This document shows, piece by piece, positions 3,044-31,041 of a DNA stretch of 32,957 bases. Both the position numbers and the translations under genes were made by a program. The stretch is taken from contig CAIMMI010000294.1 in assembly GCA_903842505.1 (NCBI GenBank), forward strand, positions 1 through 32,957, read 5' to 3'. Position 1 is the stretch's first letter. Every line of letters begins with the position of its first letter. Under the pieces are notes generated by a model. The model saw only the letters and a list, made by a program, of their open reading frames with translations, ran no database searches and was not told the origin of the DNA. Source of the stretch: an uncultured Verrucomicrobiota bacterium. GTDB taxonomy: Bacteria; Verrucomicrobiota; Verrucomicrobiia; Limisphaerales; UBA9464.

Positions 3044-3077
3044 AGAAAACGCGAGCATCGCGAACCCCACTCCCCAG

Positions 3078-3083
3078 TGTCAA
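3078..3083 (-). promoter_or_regulatory. Possible -35 box upstream of glycyl-tRNA synthetase
   Basis: Read on the minus strand this is a perfect TTGACA, 34 nt before the ATG at 3043. The -10 position 17-18 nt downstream is poor (around CGATGC or GATGCT), so the promoter is a weak guess and would give a very short leader. Confidence 0.2.
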
Positions 3084-3102
3084 CGGATCGTTCCCGGACG
3101 TG

Positions 3103-3167
3103 TCGGCTCAAACCCCATCCCGACACCCCCTCCCACCAGGGATGGGGCAAGTGTCCTCACGAGCCGA
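3103..3167. repeat. Nested inverted repeat between the isomerase-like gene and glyQS
   Basis: CCCCATCCC (3113-3121) pairs perfectly with GGGATGGGG (3139-3147). Outside it TCGGCTC (3103-3109) pairs with GAGCCGA (3161-3167). Together they form a 65-bp imperfect palindrome 60-124 nt upstream of the synthetase start. It has no T-tract and no recognisable T-box features. It could be a terminator for the upstream minus-strand gene or a folded leader. The rest of 3044-3298 holds only the dispersed repeat at 3253-3291. Confidence 0.45.
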
Positions 3168-3252
3168 TGGGGCTTCTCATCTGAGGAGAGCGCTGGTCGG
3201 GATTCAGTACGAGGATCGCCCTGCGGGCTGAGGACGAGCACGAAGGGAGTCC

Positions 3253-3291
3253 GGCTTGAAACTTGAATCTGAAAACTTCGAACTCTGGATC
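3253..3291 (+). repeat. Dispersed intergenic element, copy A
   Basis: A 39-bp sequence that begins GGCTTGAAACTTGAATCT and ends GAACTCTGGATC. It is identical over its whole length to 10268-10306 and recurs in inverted orientation at 15129-15186. Copy A ends 7 bp before the stop codon of the isomerase-like gene at 3299, and the family's GTCTCGCCCCACC tail is missing here. Confidence 0.85.
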
Positions 3292-3298
3292 CCCTCGC

Positions 3299-4210: not shown

Positions 4211-4235
4211 GCCCTGTCCTGTGAGGGGCGGGCGG

Positions 4236-4262
4236 ACAAGTTTCAAGTTGGAAGTTTCAAGG
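4236..4262 (-). repeat. Variant of the TTGAAACTTGAA dispersed element
   Basis: On the minus strand this reads TTGAAACTTCCAACTTGAAA inside a slightly longer repeat-like stretch. It shares the TTGAAACTT word with the elements at 3253, 10268 and 15195 but lacks their right half. It lies 26 bp upstream of the Tat-exported isomerase-like gene. Confidence 0.45.
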
Positions 4263-4320
4263 CAGTGGAGTTGCCTGGCCGAGGAACGAAGCCTACCCAC
4301 CTGCCACCCTCGCGCCTTCG

Positions 4321-4466
4321 CGGCTTCGCGCGAAGCCTTCACGGGCTGGAAGGGGTTTCGCGCGAAGCCGCGAGGGTGCGAAGGAATGAAGGTCGGGGTT
4401 ACAACAACGGCAGCGACGGCCGCCACGTTCCGTCTTCCCTGCGCCTCAGCGCCCCTGCGGGAAACC
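4321..4466. repeat. Direct repeat unit 1 (146 bp) with CTTCGCGCGAAG palindromes
   Basis: This block recurs 294 bp downstream at 4615-4760 with about 11 mismatches in 146 positions counted by eye (about 92% identical). It contains the self-complementary word CTTCGCGCGAAG and its near copy TTTCGCGCGAAG, and ends in a GCGCCTCAGCGCCCCTGCGGG motif (two pieces of which recur near 15860). It does not look protein-coding. Confidence 0.8.
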
Positions 4467-4614
4467 CCATCCGTGTCTGTCATCGGTGCCCTCTGCGGTT
4501 CCAACGGCCGTCTCCCGGTTCACCGAGCGGAAGAGTTTCGCGCGAAGAGGAATCGAGACCGGGCAACGGGGACATTGCCACCCCGTCCGACTCTTTCGCG
4601 TCCTCGCGGCTTCG

Positions 4615-4760
4615 CGTCTTCGCGCGAAGCCTTCACGGGTCGGAAGGGGTTTCGCGCGAAGCCGCGAGGGTGCGAAGGAATGAGGGTCGGGGTTACGACA
4701 ACGGCAGCGACGGGAACCACGTTCTGCCTTCCCTGCGCCTCGGCGCCCCTGCGGGAAACC
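4615..4760. repeat. Direct repeat unit 2 (146 bp)
   Basis: Second copy of the block at 4321-4466, same orientation. It is immediately followed by CTCCGCGTCTCCGCGTGAA (4767-4785), a member of a second repeat family also seen near 15890 and 30790. The spacer 4467-4614 has another TTTCGCGCGAAG palindrome near 4536 and nothing that looks like a gene. Together these explain the 677-bp gap between 4210 and 4888. Confidence 0.8.
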
Positions 4761-4887
4761 GTCCCCCTCCGCGTCTCCGCGTGAACCCTCCCACCCCTCT
4801 GCCGCCCCATCCCGCGGGATCCAACGGCTGACGCCGTGGGCTAACTTCTGTCGGTGCTCCGCACCTCGGGAGGCCGCCAATCCCCGC

Positions 4888-6048
4888 CTATCTCCGGAAC
4901 GACGCGGCGAAATCCTCCTTGCCCCCAGCGACCACGACCTTTTCCAACCGGGATCCGGCGATCAGTTCCTTCAATCGCCGTTCCCACGCGAGGGCATCGA
5001 GCGGCAGTTCGACTTCCCGGCCTTCGAGCGCCGAGAACACGATGGCGTTCGCCAACTCCACCGAATTCACGCCGTCGCTGCCGGGGGCGATCAGTGGTGC
5101 GCCGTCGAGGGCGGCGGCGACGAAGTTTTCCATCAATTGCGCGTGGGGTGCGGCGGCGTTCTCGAACGGGATCTCGACGTTCCAGATCTCGGGCTTGGTG
5201 AAGCCGCCCTTCGCCGAGCGTGAGAACTCCAGCATGTCGCCGTCGTTGCGCGTGAACCGCAACTTTCCGTCCTCCAGCACCAGTCGGCCACGCGAACCCA
5301 CGATCTCCAATCGGTTGGTCCCGGGCGCCTCGGCCGTGCTCGCCACGAACACTCCGGTGGCACCTCCGGGATATTCGAAGTACGCCGTCACGTCGTCCTC
5401 GACCTCGATTCCGTGGTAGCGACCGAACCCGCAGAATCCCCGGACCCTGGAAGGCTGACCGAGCATCCACGAAAGCACGTCGAGATTGTGGAGGCACTGG
5501 TTCAGCAAGACACCGCCACCCTCCCCCTTCCACGTCGCCCGCCAACCGCCGCTCGCATAGTAGGCTTCGGTCCGGAACCAATCGGTGTTGATCCAGTTCA
5601 CCCGGACCAACCGGCCCAGTTCCCCGCTCTCCAGCAGGCGTCGGATCTTCTGGTACCGGGGTTCCACCCGGAGTTGGAACATCCCGCCCAGCACCTGCCC
5701 CGGCCGCGACGAAGCCACCGCCAACAACCGTTCCGCGTCCGCCTTGTGCGCCGAGATCGGCTTTTCGACCATCACATGCAACCCCGCCTCCAGCGCGGCA
5801 ATGCCCAGCGTGGTGTGATCGTAGTGCGGGGTCGCGATCAGGACCGCATCGACCGTCCCGCTCCGGATCAGCGCCAGGCCATCGCCCCAGACTTGAACGC
5901 CCTTCGCCGCGTAACTGTCCAGCTTGCCGGGCGACGTCGAGCAGACGGCCACCAACTCGCATCGCGCCACCTTGCGGTCCAACAGATAACCCGCGTGGTG
6001 CCGCCCGATGTTGCCCATGCCGATGATGCCAATGCGGATCGTTTTCAT
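4888..6048 (-). CDS. Gfo/Idh/MocA family NAD(P)-dependent oxidoreductase
   Basis: A 386-residue protein with the two-domain layout of the family. The N-terminal Rossmann domain starts IRIGIIGMGNIG with the G-x-G-x-x-G dinucleotide motif (G10, G12, G15). The signature E95-K96-P97 lies in HVMVEKPIS. The C-terminal alpha/beta domain carries the substrate-site H-x-x-D (H187, D190) in NQCLHNLD. These enzymes oxidise or reduce sugars, inositols or their derivatives with NAD(P). No signal peptide is visible, so it should be cytoplasmic. The start at 6048 (MKTIRIG) is the only one that places the first beta strand at the N-terminus. It lies upstream of the Tat-exported TIM-barrel gene on the same strand, across a 677-bp repeat-rich gap, so co-transcription is doubtful although the pairing is typical. 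The substrate is unknown. Confidence 0.92.
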   Translation of the reverse strand: MKTIRIGIIGMGNIGRHHAGYLLDRKVARCELVAVCSTSPGKLDSYAAKGVQVWGDGLALIRSGTVDAVLIATPHYDHTTLGIAALEAGLHVMVEKPISAHKADAERLLAVASSRPGQVLGGMFQLRVEPRYQKIRRLLESGELGRLVRVNWINTDWFRTEAYYASGGWRATWKGEGGGVLLNQCLHNLDVLSWMLGQPSRVRGFCGFGRYHGIEVEDDVTAYFEYPGGATGVFVASTAEAPGTNRLEIVGSRGRLVLEDGKLRFTRNDGDMLEFSRSAKGGFTKPEIWNVEIPFENAAAPHAQLMENFVAAALDGAPLIAPGSDGVNSVELANAIVFSALEGREVELPLDALAWERRLKELIAGSRLEKVVVAGGKEDFAASFRR

Positions 6049-10237: not shown

Positions 10238-10267
10238 GCCATGATCCGGGGCGCATCGGAAGACTGC

Positions 10268-10326
10268 GGCTTGAAACTTGAATCTGAAAACTTCGAACTC
10301 TGGATCGGCTGGACGTCTCGCCCCAC
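10268..10326 (+). repeat. Dispersed intergenic element, copy B (59 bp)
   Basis: It starts GGCTTGAAACTTGAATCT and ends GTCTCGCCCCACC. The first 39 bp are identical to copy A (3253-3291). The whole length aligns to the reverse complement of 15129-15186 with a few mismatches and one gap. The remainder of the 10238-10414 gap has no gene. Confidence 0.85.
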
Positions 10327-10414
10327 CAGCGGGGCAGTTCGCCCCACGTTCGGCGCGCCTCACCCCACAGGATCCGCGTAGAACCCGGAAACGCTCTAGA
10401 ACGGCGTTGTTCCC

Positions 10415-15062: not shown

Positions 15063-15111
15063 TCTTGAAACCCGAAACCCCGCAGCGTCTCGCGATGACC
15101 CTCGCCCCACC
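15063..15111 (+). repeat. Degenerate copy of the dispersed element
   Basis: It starts TCTTGAAAC and ends GCGTCTCGCG plus CTCGCCCCACC. The same layout, with a close match in the right half, recurs at 15210-15257. It overlaps the region just upstream of the lipid kinase gene. Confidence 0.6.
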
Positions 15112-15139
15112 TCACGCTCAGCAAGTTGGGTGGGGCGAG
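15101..15139. repeat. 11-bp perfect inverted repeat, CTCGCCCCACC
   Basis: CTCGCCCCACC at 15101-15111 pairs with GGTGGGGCGAG at 15129-15139 across a 17-nt loop. The two arms are the ends of two oppositely oriented copies of the dispersed element, so the hairpin is a product of repeat arrangement. It could also act as a structured leader or terminator. Confidence 0.7.
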
Positions 15140-15186
15140 ACTCGAGCCGGTCCGGAGTTCGAAGTTTTCAGATTCAAGTTTGAAGC
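15129..15186 (-). repeat. Dispersed intergenic element, copy C (inverted)
   Basis: On the minus strand it begins near CTTCAAACTTGAATCT and ends GTCTCGCCCCACC. It matches copy B (10268-10326) closely along its length and copy A in its left half. Confidence 0.85.
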
Positions 15187-15194
15187 GGCCGCCG

Positions 15195-15257
15195 GCCTTG
15201 AAACTTGAATCTTGAAACTTGGGACTCCAACGCGTCTCGCGAAGACCCTCGTCCCAC
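15195..15257 (+). repeat. Dispersed intergenic element, copy D variant
   Basis: It starts CCTTGAAACTTGAATCTTG and ends GCGTCTCGCG followed by CTCGTCCCACC. Facing copy C, it makes an inverted pair (GATTCAAGTTT at 15171-15181 with AAACTTGAATC near 15201-15211). These elements account for most of the 15011-15424 gap. The remainder (15258-15424) shows nothing recognisable apart from the GAAAGG ribosome binding site of the next gene. Confidence 0.7.
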
Positions 15258-15424
15258 CGCTCGATGGCCCACCCTCGAACGGGTGCAGTACCAACATCCG
15301 CCCTGCTTCCGCCAACCCAAGCCGAGCCCCCTGCCCCTCCCCGAACTAGCCTGCCCCCGGAGCCCAGAGATTCGTCAACTCACCGACACGCAATCACCGC
15401 TGGGTTCCCAACGAAAGGCCTCCC

Positions 15425-20215: not shown

Positions 20216-20233
20216 GAACTGAGTTATGGGTAT

Positions 20234-20260
20234 CCACAGATTACACAGATTACACGGATT
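20234..20260 (-). repeat. ATCTGTGTAATCTGTG family repeat, copy 1
   Basis: On the plus strand it reads CCACAGATTACACAGATTAC and on. Its reverse complement matches the two copies at 20379 and 20424, so it faces them across about 120 bp and could pair with them as a long-range stem. Confidence 0.8.
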
Positions 20261-20378
20261 CCCGGAAGCCGACGTGGGGAGTGTGGCGCCGTGTCGGGGA
20301 CCCGGCACCGCACGCTTCATTCCACGCGCCTTCCTTCGGCCACCCCACGTGAGATCTGCGGACCCGCACCCGCTCCAC

Positions 20379-20405
20379 AATCTGTGAAATCTGTGAAATC
20401 TGTGG
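20379..20405 (+). repeat. ATCTGTGTAATCTGTG family repeat, copy 2
   Basis: Three AATCTGTGA-like words in a row, period 9. It lies in the spacer between the pump and the TolC-type gene. Confidence 0.8.
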
Positions 20406-20423
20406 CCCCACGCCCTCTCCACC

Positions 20424-20449
20424 ATCTGTGTAATCTGTGAAATCTGTGG
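20424..20449 (+). repeat. ATCTGTGTAATCTGTG family repeat, copy 3
   Basis: It reads ATCTGTGTAATCTGTG and then AAATCTGTGG. Both upstream GTG start candidates (20437, 20446) of the TolC-type gene lie inside it. The rest of the 20216-20436 spacer has no gene. Confidence 0.8.
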
Positions 20450-21879
20450 ACCGCCCAACCTCCCTGTCATCCGTGCACCTCCTGCGCATCGGTGGATGTG
20501 CGCTGCTGCTCTCGCTCGCCTCATGCGTCTCGCCGATCGGCCGGGACCATCAACCGCCGGACGTCTCGGCCATCACCCCGGGCTCCTATACGTGGCAACC
20601 GGCCCAACCCGTCGACCACCTGCCCAAGGGCGAATGGTGGAAGGCCTTCAACGATCCGGAACTCGACGCCCTCGAAACCCGCGCCCGCGCCGGAAGCCCG
20701 ACCGTCCAGGCCGCTGTCGCCCGCGTCGAACAGGGCCGCGCCCGCGCCCGCGCCTCCAAGGTCGACTTCTTTCCCGACATCCGGTTCCACCCCGCCTTCG
20801 ACCGCCAACGCACCTCGGGCAACCTGCCCACCCCAGTCCCCGTCAGCATCCCGGCCGCCCAGATCAACAGCTTCTCCGTCCCGCTCGACCTCAGCTATGA
20901 GATCGACCTGTGGGGCAAGGTCCGGCGCACCGTCGAATCCGCCCGCAACACCGCCGCCGCCAGCGCCGCCGACTACAACCAGGTCCTCCTCACCCTGAGC
21001 GCCGACGTCGCCGCCCAGCATTTCACCCGACGCGCCCTCGACACCGAGATTGCCGCCCTTCGACGCACCCTCGCGCTCCGCGAAGGCCAACTCCGACTCC
21101 TCGAACAACGTGCCGCCGCCGGTACCATCGCCCAGACCGACGTCTTCCGCGCCCGCACCGAACTCTCCAACACCCGCTCCGATCTCGCCGACGCCATCCG
21201 CCTCCGCGAAGAAGCAGCCGCCGCACTCGCCCTCCTCTGTGGCGAACCCGCCGGTCGACTCCCGCTGACCGAAAGCCCTCTCGGCACCAACGCGCCCCCG
21301 ACGGTTCCTCCTGGCCTTCCCGCGCAACTCCTCGAACGACGTCCCGACATCGCCGCCGCCGAGCGACTCGTCGCCGCCCGCAACGCCGACATCGGCGTCG
21401 CCAAGGCCGCGTACTTCCCCAGCCTCCGCCTCACCGGCAACGCCGGATTCCTCAGCAGCGACGTCGACTCCCTGTTCTCCGTCGACAGCCGCACCTGGTC
21501 CATCGGTCCGTCCCTGACGCTTCCGGTCACGGGTTACGCCGTGATCGGCGCACGGGTCCGCAACGCCCGGGCCGCCCACGCCGAAGCCACCGCGCAGTAT
21601 CGTCAGGCCGTCCTCGGGGCCATCCGCGACGTCGAGACCTCGCTCGCCCAGGTCCGATACCGCGCCGAGCAGTCAGCCGCCCTCGCCGAATCCCTCGCCT
21701 CCGCCCGTCAGGCGGAGGACCTCATCCGACAACGCTACGACCGTGGCCTCGTCAGCCAGGTCGAACTCCTCGACGCCGAGCGCACCCGCCTGCTCGTCGA
21801 ACTCCGCCACGCCCAGATCCTCGCCCAGCAACACATCGCCTCCGTCCGACTCATCAAGTCCCTCGGCGGCGCGTGGTGA
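20437..21879 (+). CDS. TolC/OprM-like outer-membrane efflux lipoprotein
   Basis: A protein of up to 480 residues with the two OEP repeats of the RND outer-membrane factor family. The lipobox L-A-S-C has its cysteine at position 30 from GTG 20437. The start is uncertain: no in-frame ATG lies before the signal peptide. GTG 20437 and GTG 20446 lie within a dispersed repeat, and GTG 20473 (MHLLRIGGCALLL, lipidated Cys18) gives a more ordinary signal peptide. The first repeat includes WWKAFNDPELDALETRA and LSYEIDLWGKVRR; the second includes LLERRPDIAAAERLVAARNADIGVAKAAYFPSL. It should form the outer-membrane channel for the pump encoded at 17126. It ends 58 bp before the convergent TIG protein gene. 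Confidence 0.92.
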   Translation: MKSVDRPTSLSSVHLLRIGGCALLLSLASCVSPIGRDHQPPDVSAITPGSYTWQPAQPVDHLPKGEWWKAFNDPELDALETRARAGSPTVQAAVARVEQGRARARASKVDFFPDIRFHPAFDRQRTSGNLPTPVPVSIPAAQINSFSVPLDLSYEIDLWGKVRRTVESARNTAAASAADYNQVLLTLSADVAAQHFTRRALDTEIAALRRTLALREGQLRLLEQRAAAGTIAQTDVFRARTELSNTRSDLADAIRLREEAAAALALLCGEPAGRLPLTESPLGTNAPPTVPPGLPAQLLERRPDIAAAERLVAARNADIGVAKAAYFPSLRLTGNAGFLSSDVDSLFSVDSRTWSIGPSLTLPVTGYAVIGARVRNARAAHAEATAQYRQAVLGAIRDVETSLAQVRYRAEQSAALAESLASARQAEDLIRQRYDRGLVSQVELLDAERTRLLVELRHAQILAQQHIASVRLIKSLGGAW

Positions 21880-30907: not shown

Positions 30908-31041
30908 GGGCGCATCTTGACACTGCCACCGTTTGGAAAGGATTCGGGGCGGCGATGTCCTCATCGCCTTGGGAATAGCTTTGGAACGGCGACGAGGACG
31001 TAGCCACCCCGTTGCACGCGGGGCAGTGTCAAGATGCGCCC
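30908..31041. repeat. 134-bp palindromic element with perfect 20-bp terminal inverted repeats
   Basis: The left end GGGCGCATCTTGACACTGCC (30908-30927) is the exact reverse complement of 31022-31041. Inside, GGCGATGTCCTCATCGCC and GGCGACGAGGACGTAGCC form a further imperfect inverted pair (15 of 18 positions), and the first of these also folds on itself. The 94-bp centre encodes nothing apparent. Size and structure suggest a miniature mobile element or a REP/BIME-type element. No flanking target-site duplication was found by eye. The element ends 55 bp before the start of the following gene. Confidence 0.75.

Follow-up and report, generated by a model that had tools for sequence, protein, structure and literature searches.

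A probable composite REPIN in a Verrucomicrobiota genome, with inverted REP ends around a palindrome of heptanucleotide repeats

REPs are defined as imperfect palindromes with GT(A/G)G heads, found on the flanks of the REP-associated tyrosine transposases, or RAYTs (PMC2817692). Here we describe a repeat family that resembles the REPIN/RAYT systems, as set out in PMC3116915, PMC8049555 and PMC2817692, in several ways: its GT(A/G)G-headed REPs are inverted, its single-stranded DNA is predicted to form a hairpin, it lies in intergenic DNA in of the order of 100-300 copies, and the same REP class flanks RAYTs in relatives. It differs in its interior, a conserved palindrome of 7-bp repeats that stands free in congeners; the spacer is short and highly diverse in the account of PMC8049555, whereas here the two arms are conserved (0.93 and 0.90, against 0.96 for the REPs). 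Spacer conservation is a descriptive trait and no condition of REPIN mobility. For REP dimers, PMC3733652 reports that heterodimers are preferred in most families and that among the spacers, which measure 20-100 bp, some are largely conserved and others have complementary ends, so neither conserved or self-complementary spacers nor REP heterodimers are new; its section on dimers, however, mentions neither a heptad-repeat palindrome nor a spacer element that occurs independently in relatives. The same paper, the only one that our search found on REPIN/RAYT systems in Verrucomicrobiota, describes GTAG REPs of Opitutus terrae, a member of the same phylum, in which the GTAG-20 heads have mostly mutated to GTGG, and we liken them to the present REPs by description only. 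A heptad-armed REPIN was not found in the literature searched, whose coverage excluded most subscription papers, and a search there for heptanucleotide repeats came up empty. The BIME of E. coli is also alike in joining an asymmetric pair of REP types by an inter-REP part, and three divergent REP neighbours within 60 bp, a BIME-like trait, occur in a 430-kb sample of our genome.

The window analysed here, 32,957 bp long, is contig C294 of a 5.21-Mb genome (362 contigs, 95.6% complete) of an uncultured Verrucomicrobiota bacterium; below, genomes are numbered G, contigs C and loci L. An initial annotation of the window had described a dispersed unit of roughly 60 bp, which did not hold, since the unit is an imperfect palindrome of ~130 bp and the supposed 60-bp element is one half of it. 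The identity it had claimed between 3253-3291 and 10268-10306 is exact and extends one base further to the left, making 3252-3291 and 10267-10306 the same 40 bp, both of them truncated right halves. Also confirmed are the longer form, at 10268-10326, with its inverted copy at 15129-15186 (48 nt, 90% complementary), and the degenerate copies at 15063-15111, 15195-15257 and 4236-4262; 15129-15186 and 15195-15257 are real but are not separate copies, being the two arms of one palindrome at 15129-15258. The exact 40-bp pair appears particular to the window, because no other place exceeds 92% identity to the query among the BLAST matches listed of at least 30 nt; two shorter pieces come closer, one of 23 nt at 96% and one of 16 nt at 94%. 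The parts of the family in the window are as follows.

3141-3165, plus strand: REP-L whose head has decayed to GATGGGGC; a GAGTAC-type module separates it from the truncated arm, which lies downstream
3252-3291, plus strand: truncated right heptad arm without REP-R, the same 40 bp as 10267-10306
4236-4262, minus strand: degenerate heptad arm without a REP
10267-10327, plus strand: right half standing alone, made up of the heptad arm and a REP-R that has lost most of its apical stem
15063-15111, minus strand: left half in a decayed state (arm and REP-L), separated from the complete element by 17 bp
15129-15258, minus strand: the window's only complete element, an imperfect palindrome of ~130 bp from REP-L to REP-R (covariance-model match, E 6.5e-28; single-stranded DNA fold -32.8 kcal/mol, z -4.5)
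15129-15149, minus strand: REP-R end of the complete element, with a shortened apical stem
15155-15186, minus strand: right heptad arm of the complete element
15187-15196, minus strand: loop of the complete element
15197-15227, minus strand: left heptad arm of the complete element, reading CTTGAAA CTTGAAT CTTGAAA CTTGGGA on the plus strand
15233-15258, minus strand: REP-L end of the complete element

The GAGTAC-hexamer module, at 3164-3247 in the window and also seen at L006, L008 and L017, takes the place of the left arm in some copies, which suggests that half elements combine with other intergenic repeats.

According to the initial annotation, the repeat would be only a local duplication if the rest of the genome held no further copies, and more than 100 were found. 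A covariance model gave at least 148 matches, or 143 places once five both-strand duplicates were dropped, a lower bound because 150 of 3946 candidates were scored, while a 69-nt query, with 40 of 370 candidates scored, gave at least 61 places in the 5.2 Mb. The pattern CTTGAAACTTGAATCTTGAAACTTG, at ≤3 mismatches, occurs at 132+137 places on the two strands against 1+0 for the reversed control, and the REP pattern GTGGGGCGAGN{5,9}CGAGCC has 179+147 = 326 exact places against 0+0. The copies are intergenic, as had been claimed: in the 430-kb sample 57 of the 62 REP ends fall outside genes, as do 12% of random positions, the genes being our own home-made calls by codon usage. These calls replaced a longest-ORF map that placed 36 of the 62 REPs in ORFs and called 91% of the sample coding. 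Gaps holding REPs (n=36) comprise 20 tandem, 11 divergent and 5 convergent ones, and the background (n=184) comprises 103, 49 and 32. Distances to gene 3' ends are ≤21 bp in 11 of 50 cases; only 2 of 62 distances to gene 5' ends fall under 48 bp (16 and 40). Such distances are more in keeping with an avoidance of gene starts than with a role in termination, and we rejected a terminator as the main function, gaps with REPs not being enriched for gene 3' ends.

With its junctions written as n, the consensus of the element reads GGTGGGGCGAGTGTCCTCACGAGCCG - nnnn - GGAGTCCCAAGTTTCAAGATTCAAGTTTCAAG - loop - GCTTCAAACTTGAAACTGAAAACTTCnAACTC - nnnn - CGGCTCGACGGAGTCTCGCCCCACC. It was drawn from 22 copies with recognisable arms out of 25 REP pairs that were located solely by their REP ends, the three pairs without recognisable arms being excluded from the alignment. 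The arms are made of degenerate 7-bp units (CTTGAAA/CTTGAAT) in opposite orientation, and are nearly as conserved as the REPs. Mean pairwise identity over the 22 copies is 0.91 for REP-L, 0.90 for the left arm, 0.91 for the right arm and 0.94 for REP-R, and 0.40, 0.63 and 0.52 for junction 1, the loop and junction 2. In 92 oriented copies, a set found with an arm-containing model and so favouring apparent arm conservation, the mean major-base frequency runs from 0.957 (REP-L) through 0.492 (junction 1), 0.931 (left arm), 0.771 (loop), 0.903 (right arm) and 0.585 (junction 2) to 0.958 (REP-R). The REP-arm junctions, of 4-5 bases, are thus hypervariable at near-constant spacing, with 41 and 44 distinct strings among the 92 copies. 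Pairing between the two junctions of a copy was tested and none was found; in a test of free reassortment of halves, the junctions proved to be associated, since 22 pairs have both in common where 3.7 would be expected, and column-by-column linkage between the halves is weak. As single-stranded DNA, three whole copies fold into one long hairpin of -33 to -43 kcal/mol (z -4.5, -8.1 and -6.9).

Each end of the element is a 25-bp REP of the form GTGG-GGC-GA-(GTG..CAC or GAC..GTC)-GA-GCC, with the head GTGG and an imperfect hairpin that contains a GA/GA internal loop. Since the REP pattern leaves two apical pairs free, covariation can be read from its matches: 42 of 69 variants (distinct free regions among the matches listed, plus our own types) pair at both free positions, G-T counted, against a mean of 14.6 and a maximum of 28 in 2000 shuffles, so that the apical stem covaries across the order. 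The conserved pairing that the initial annotation had named as support for a REP-like element is present in the REP hairpins across species; it is not in the long palindrome, where two-sided compensation was found in 0 of 33 pairs. Single REPs fold no better than shuffles (z -0.44 and 0.58). In the 430-kb sample 34 of 59 REPs are in pairs, and all 17 convergent pairs join an L with an R (18 of 19 at looser matching); a REP-L whose sole arm is R-type was never seen, nor a REP-R whose sole arm is L-type, a strict link that favours one founding composite. Singlet REPs showed no clear excess of decay over paired ones, with 0.74 versus 0.92 edits at ≤3 (p 0.79) and 1.32 versus 0.92 at ≤4 (p 0.12). 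Beyond our own genome, 33 of 115 relatives have at least one exact match to the REP pattern, and 11 of them have 18 or more (G003, G026, G028, G033, G058, G060, G065, G068, G091, G093 and G100); the other 22 have 1 to 6 each, low counts that may be chance. In five genomes the reversed control gave one or two matches. One of the REP ends has exact copies in at least 92 stretches of public genomes, mostly verrucomicrobial among the 80 listed, and one contig of G016, of the same family, carries such a copy. Loci of other genomes contain 62 convergent REP pairs (some contigs counted twice), mostly with spacers of 20-39 nt (45 of 62), and heptads at ≤2 substitutions were found in none of them.

The distribution of the heptads is different from that of the REPs. 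At ≤2 mismatches the heptad pattern has 158 places in our genome, 59 in G004, 8 in G006 and at most two in any other of the 116 genomes; its reversed control gave 0 here, but as many as 62 in G066 and more than 10 in each of G054, G065 and G100, so there are other heptad-like repeats in the order. Our own 430-kb sample holds 88 heptad arms (4 in the reversed sample), which make 27 inverted pairs, 17 of them with REPs on both sides, 6 with a REP on one side and 4 with none. The heptad interior does have matches in relatives: in loci retrieved because they held heptads or matched the model, inverted arm pairs number 5 among 21 loci of G004 and 1 among 4 loci of G006, none of them with the REP class on both sides, and one G004 pair with it on one side at ≤4 substitutions. 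Inspected by eye, the loci of these congeners already contain the two arm flavours, whose ends are GGAGT or GAGTT and ACTCC or something close to it, and in most of 17 G004 loci single heptad arms lie a few bases from other REP-like hairpins. The composite model reached at most 54.8 bits outside our own genome, against 168.1 inside (stricter filters, 28 candidates scored per genome). Because G004 and G006 have inverted arms without this REP pair, the heptad palindrome seems to be a distinct and older element that lies within the REPIN. The reverse nesting was also seen by eye in G004, at L483 and L485, where the loop of a heptad palindrome holds a hairpin like another REP family.

Several sites are without the element in congeners. 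The 230 bp at 3068-3297 in the window correspond to 31 bp between the same two genes in G006, and the 682 bp at 4212-4893, which contain several kinds of repeat, to 58 bp; by eye, neither G006 nor G002 has the 10268 element in the gap that corresponds. On contig C309 a REP-L stands between a RAYT-like gene and its neighbour, which we take to be ruvC-like, and it is unseen in five congeners with that gene pair. These sites were judged from match coordinates and by eye, alignment of the gap regions being poor, and as identity over the longer matches to congeners is about 63-82%, an insertion here and a deletion in the congener look the same at any single site. The initial annotation had taken the repeat for mobile, selected or recently spread; it is probably mobile, but with a mean column identity of 81% over 22 copies, and no listed match of 30 nt or more above 92% apart from the exact pair, recent spread lacks support.

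RAYTs were found in 11 of 12 genomes with NCBIfam NF047646, and in 46 and 34 of 116, our own included, with two RAYT queries. Within 400 bp of these genes (75 rows) and at ≤3 substitutions, a tolerance at which some matches are chance, the REP class is present on both sides in 12, on one side in 10 and on neither in 53. Six two-sided RAYTs, from G058, G028, G067, G075, G003 and G095, form one clade with support 94/81, under the 95 mark; G003 is a congener and G028 a member of our genome's family. Five of them (G058, G028, G067, G075 and G003) are still two-sided when ≤2 substitutions are allowed, and the G095 gene is doubtful, with a two-REP cluster on one side only. The flanking REPs are inverted around the RAYTs of G067, G075 and G003; at G058 the nearest two are parallel and a third beyond them is inverted, and at G028 one REP lies inside the RAYT match itself. 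A RAYT of this flanked clade was not found in our own genome, 95.6% complete, where the best match is the C245 RAYT at 33% identity, and this sets the genome apart from the REPIN/RAYT systems described; the REP family has therefore probably been orphaned of its transposase. REPIN-bearing E. coli genomes without a RAYT are described in PMC8049555.

Four candidates for a cognate transposase in our own genome were set aside. L084, the RAYT-like gene of C309, has a perfect REP-L 180 bp upstream; congeners keep the gene at the same place without a REP, and the loci fetched for 29 of the 45 other genomes with a homolog show none at ≤2 substitutions, save doubtful one-sided cases in G091 and G060, so that the proximity is probably a coincidence. 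At L084 and at L117, L118 and L120-L122 in congeners the RAYT-like gene sits beside the ruvC-like gene and is apparently vertically inherited. L083, the C245 RAYT, lies among copies of a different REP family, GTAGGCCGGGTGCCCTCACCCGGC, which has 86+83 places at ≤3 mismatches (control 0). L081 and L082, on C116 and C21, are two IS200-like transposases with terminal inverted repeats unlike the ends of our element. Such an arrangement resembles the TIRYTs, tyrosine transposases with inverted repeats, of PMC3733652, as described there; the repeats of C116, GCAATGGGGTCAGTCCC, fit GGGGWSAS and those of C21 do not.

We think it likely, at roughly 75%, that the family is a composite REPIN moved by a RAYT, with inverted REP ends and the older heptad palindrome inside. 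Copy number, inverted heterodimers, intergenic location and the covarying REP hairpin support this, together with the RAYT clade flanked by the same REPs in relatives, the element-free sites of congeners and the heptad arms that lack this REP pair there. The two inverted REPs would be the ends of a miniature non-autonomous transposon whose interior is filled by the heptad-arm palindrome. RAYTs belong to the Y1 HUH enzymes and are related to IS200/IS605; one of them would attach to the hairpins of the two ends while the DNA is single-stranded, cleave at the GTGG head, excise the unit and re-insert it between genes. By homology, such an enzyme may have moved the present copies and later been lost, leaving a family that is now mostly fossil, and the heptad palindrome would have been captured by the REPIN along the way. 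A point against this reading is that simple copying does not predict the hypervariable junctions. The copies seem to be filtered for both REPs and arms, since both are conserved and the 4-5 bases that join them are nearly random, and we tentatively suggest that the heptad palindrome was a mobile or replicating element in its own right, locked here in a REP doublet, with its arms now serving as a second working component of the unit that transposes. If so, two unrelated palindromic elements spread jointly and outlived the transposase.

The junctions count in favour of a rival reading in which the heptad palindrome itself is the moving unit, spread by an unspecified mechanism, and the REPs hitch-hiked or landed beside it. 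The four REP-free and six single-REP arm pairs of our sample, like the pairs without this REP pair in G004 and G006, agree with that; it is nevertheless unlikely, given the 17 of 27 pairs with REPs on both sides, the strict link between REP type and arm type, and the heptad-free REP pairs of many genomes. Less probable is a host element under selection at each locus, such as a terminator, an mRNA 3' stabiliser or a nucleoid-protein site. Element-free sites in congeners and weak solo REP hairpins tell against it, as do the 11 of 36 REP-bearing gaps that lie between divergent genes and so lack any gene 3' end (the background, 49 of 184, is alike), notwithstanding the long stable hairpin (z -4.5 to -8.1 in three copies), arm conservation near that of the REPs and the 11 of 50 distances to gene 3' ends of ≤21 bp. 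Host uses of these kinds could be secondary.

Inverted ends of ~25 bp, a length of ~130 bp, intergenic location and high copy number would suit a MITE belonging to an insertion sequence of the cut-and-paste (DDE) type, in which the ends were ordinary terminal inverted repeats. Each end, however, has its own covarying hairpin, and in relatives such ends bracket tyrosine transposases, so we hold this to be very improbable. Local slippage of a heptanucleotide repeat, without any mobile unit, might account for the degenerate 7-bp periodicity and for the heptad arrays that congeners have without this REP; about 140 places on many contigs, with a fixed architecture and REP ends, leave it next to no credibility.

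On the composite REPIN reading, the family adds a REP class that covaries across an order and has a flanked RAYT clade in several relatives. REP-based and heptad-based intergenic palindromes are joined in one element here and separate in sister species, and comparison with species that have one part only, or that keep the transposase, would make the acquisition of a REPIN interior and the persistence of a REPIN family testable.

The window has other features besides. An Acido-Lenti-1 RNA (Rfam RF01687) matches at 4821-4866 on the plus strand with 45.3 bits, against a gathering score of 37. A 159-nt direct repeat, 92% identical, occupies 4308-4466 and 4602-4760, with inner palindromes around TTCGCGCGAAGCC; the gap in G006 that matches this region is the one of 58 bp. 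A perfect inverted repeat of 20 bp, GGGCGCATCTTGACACTGCC, lies at 30908-30927 and 31022-31041, and motifs similar to it occur on the outer flanks of several elements. Repeats of the TCCACAGATTACACAGATT type, both direct and inverted, lie at 20233-20450.
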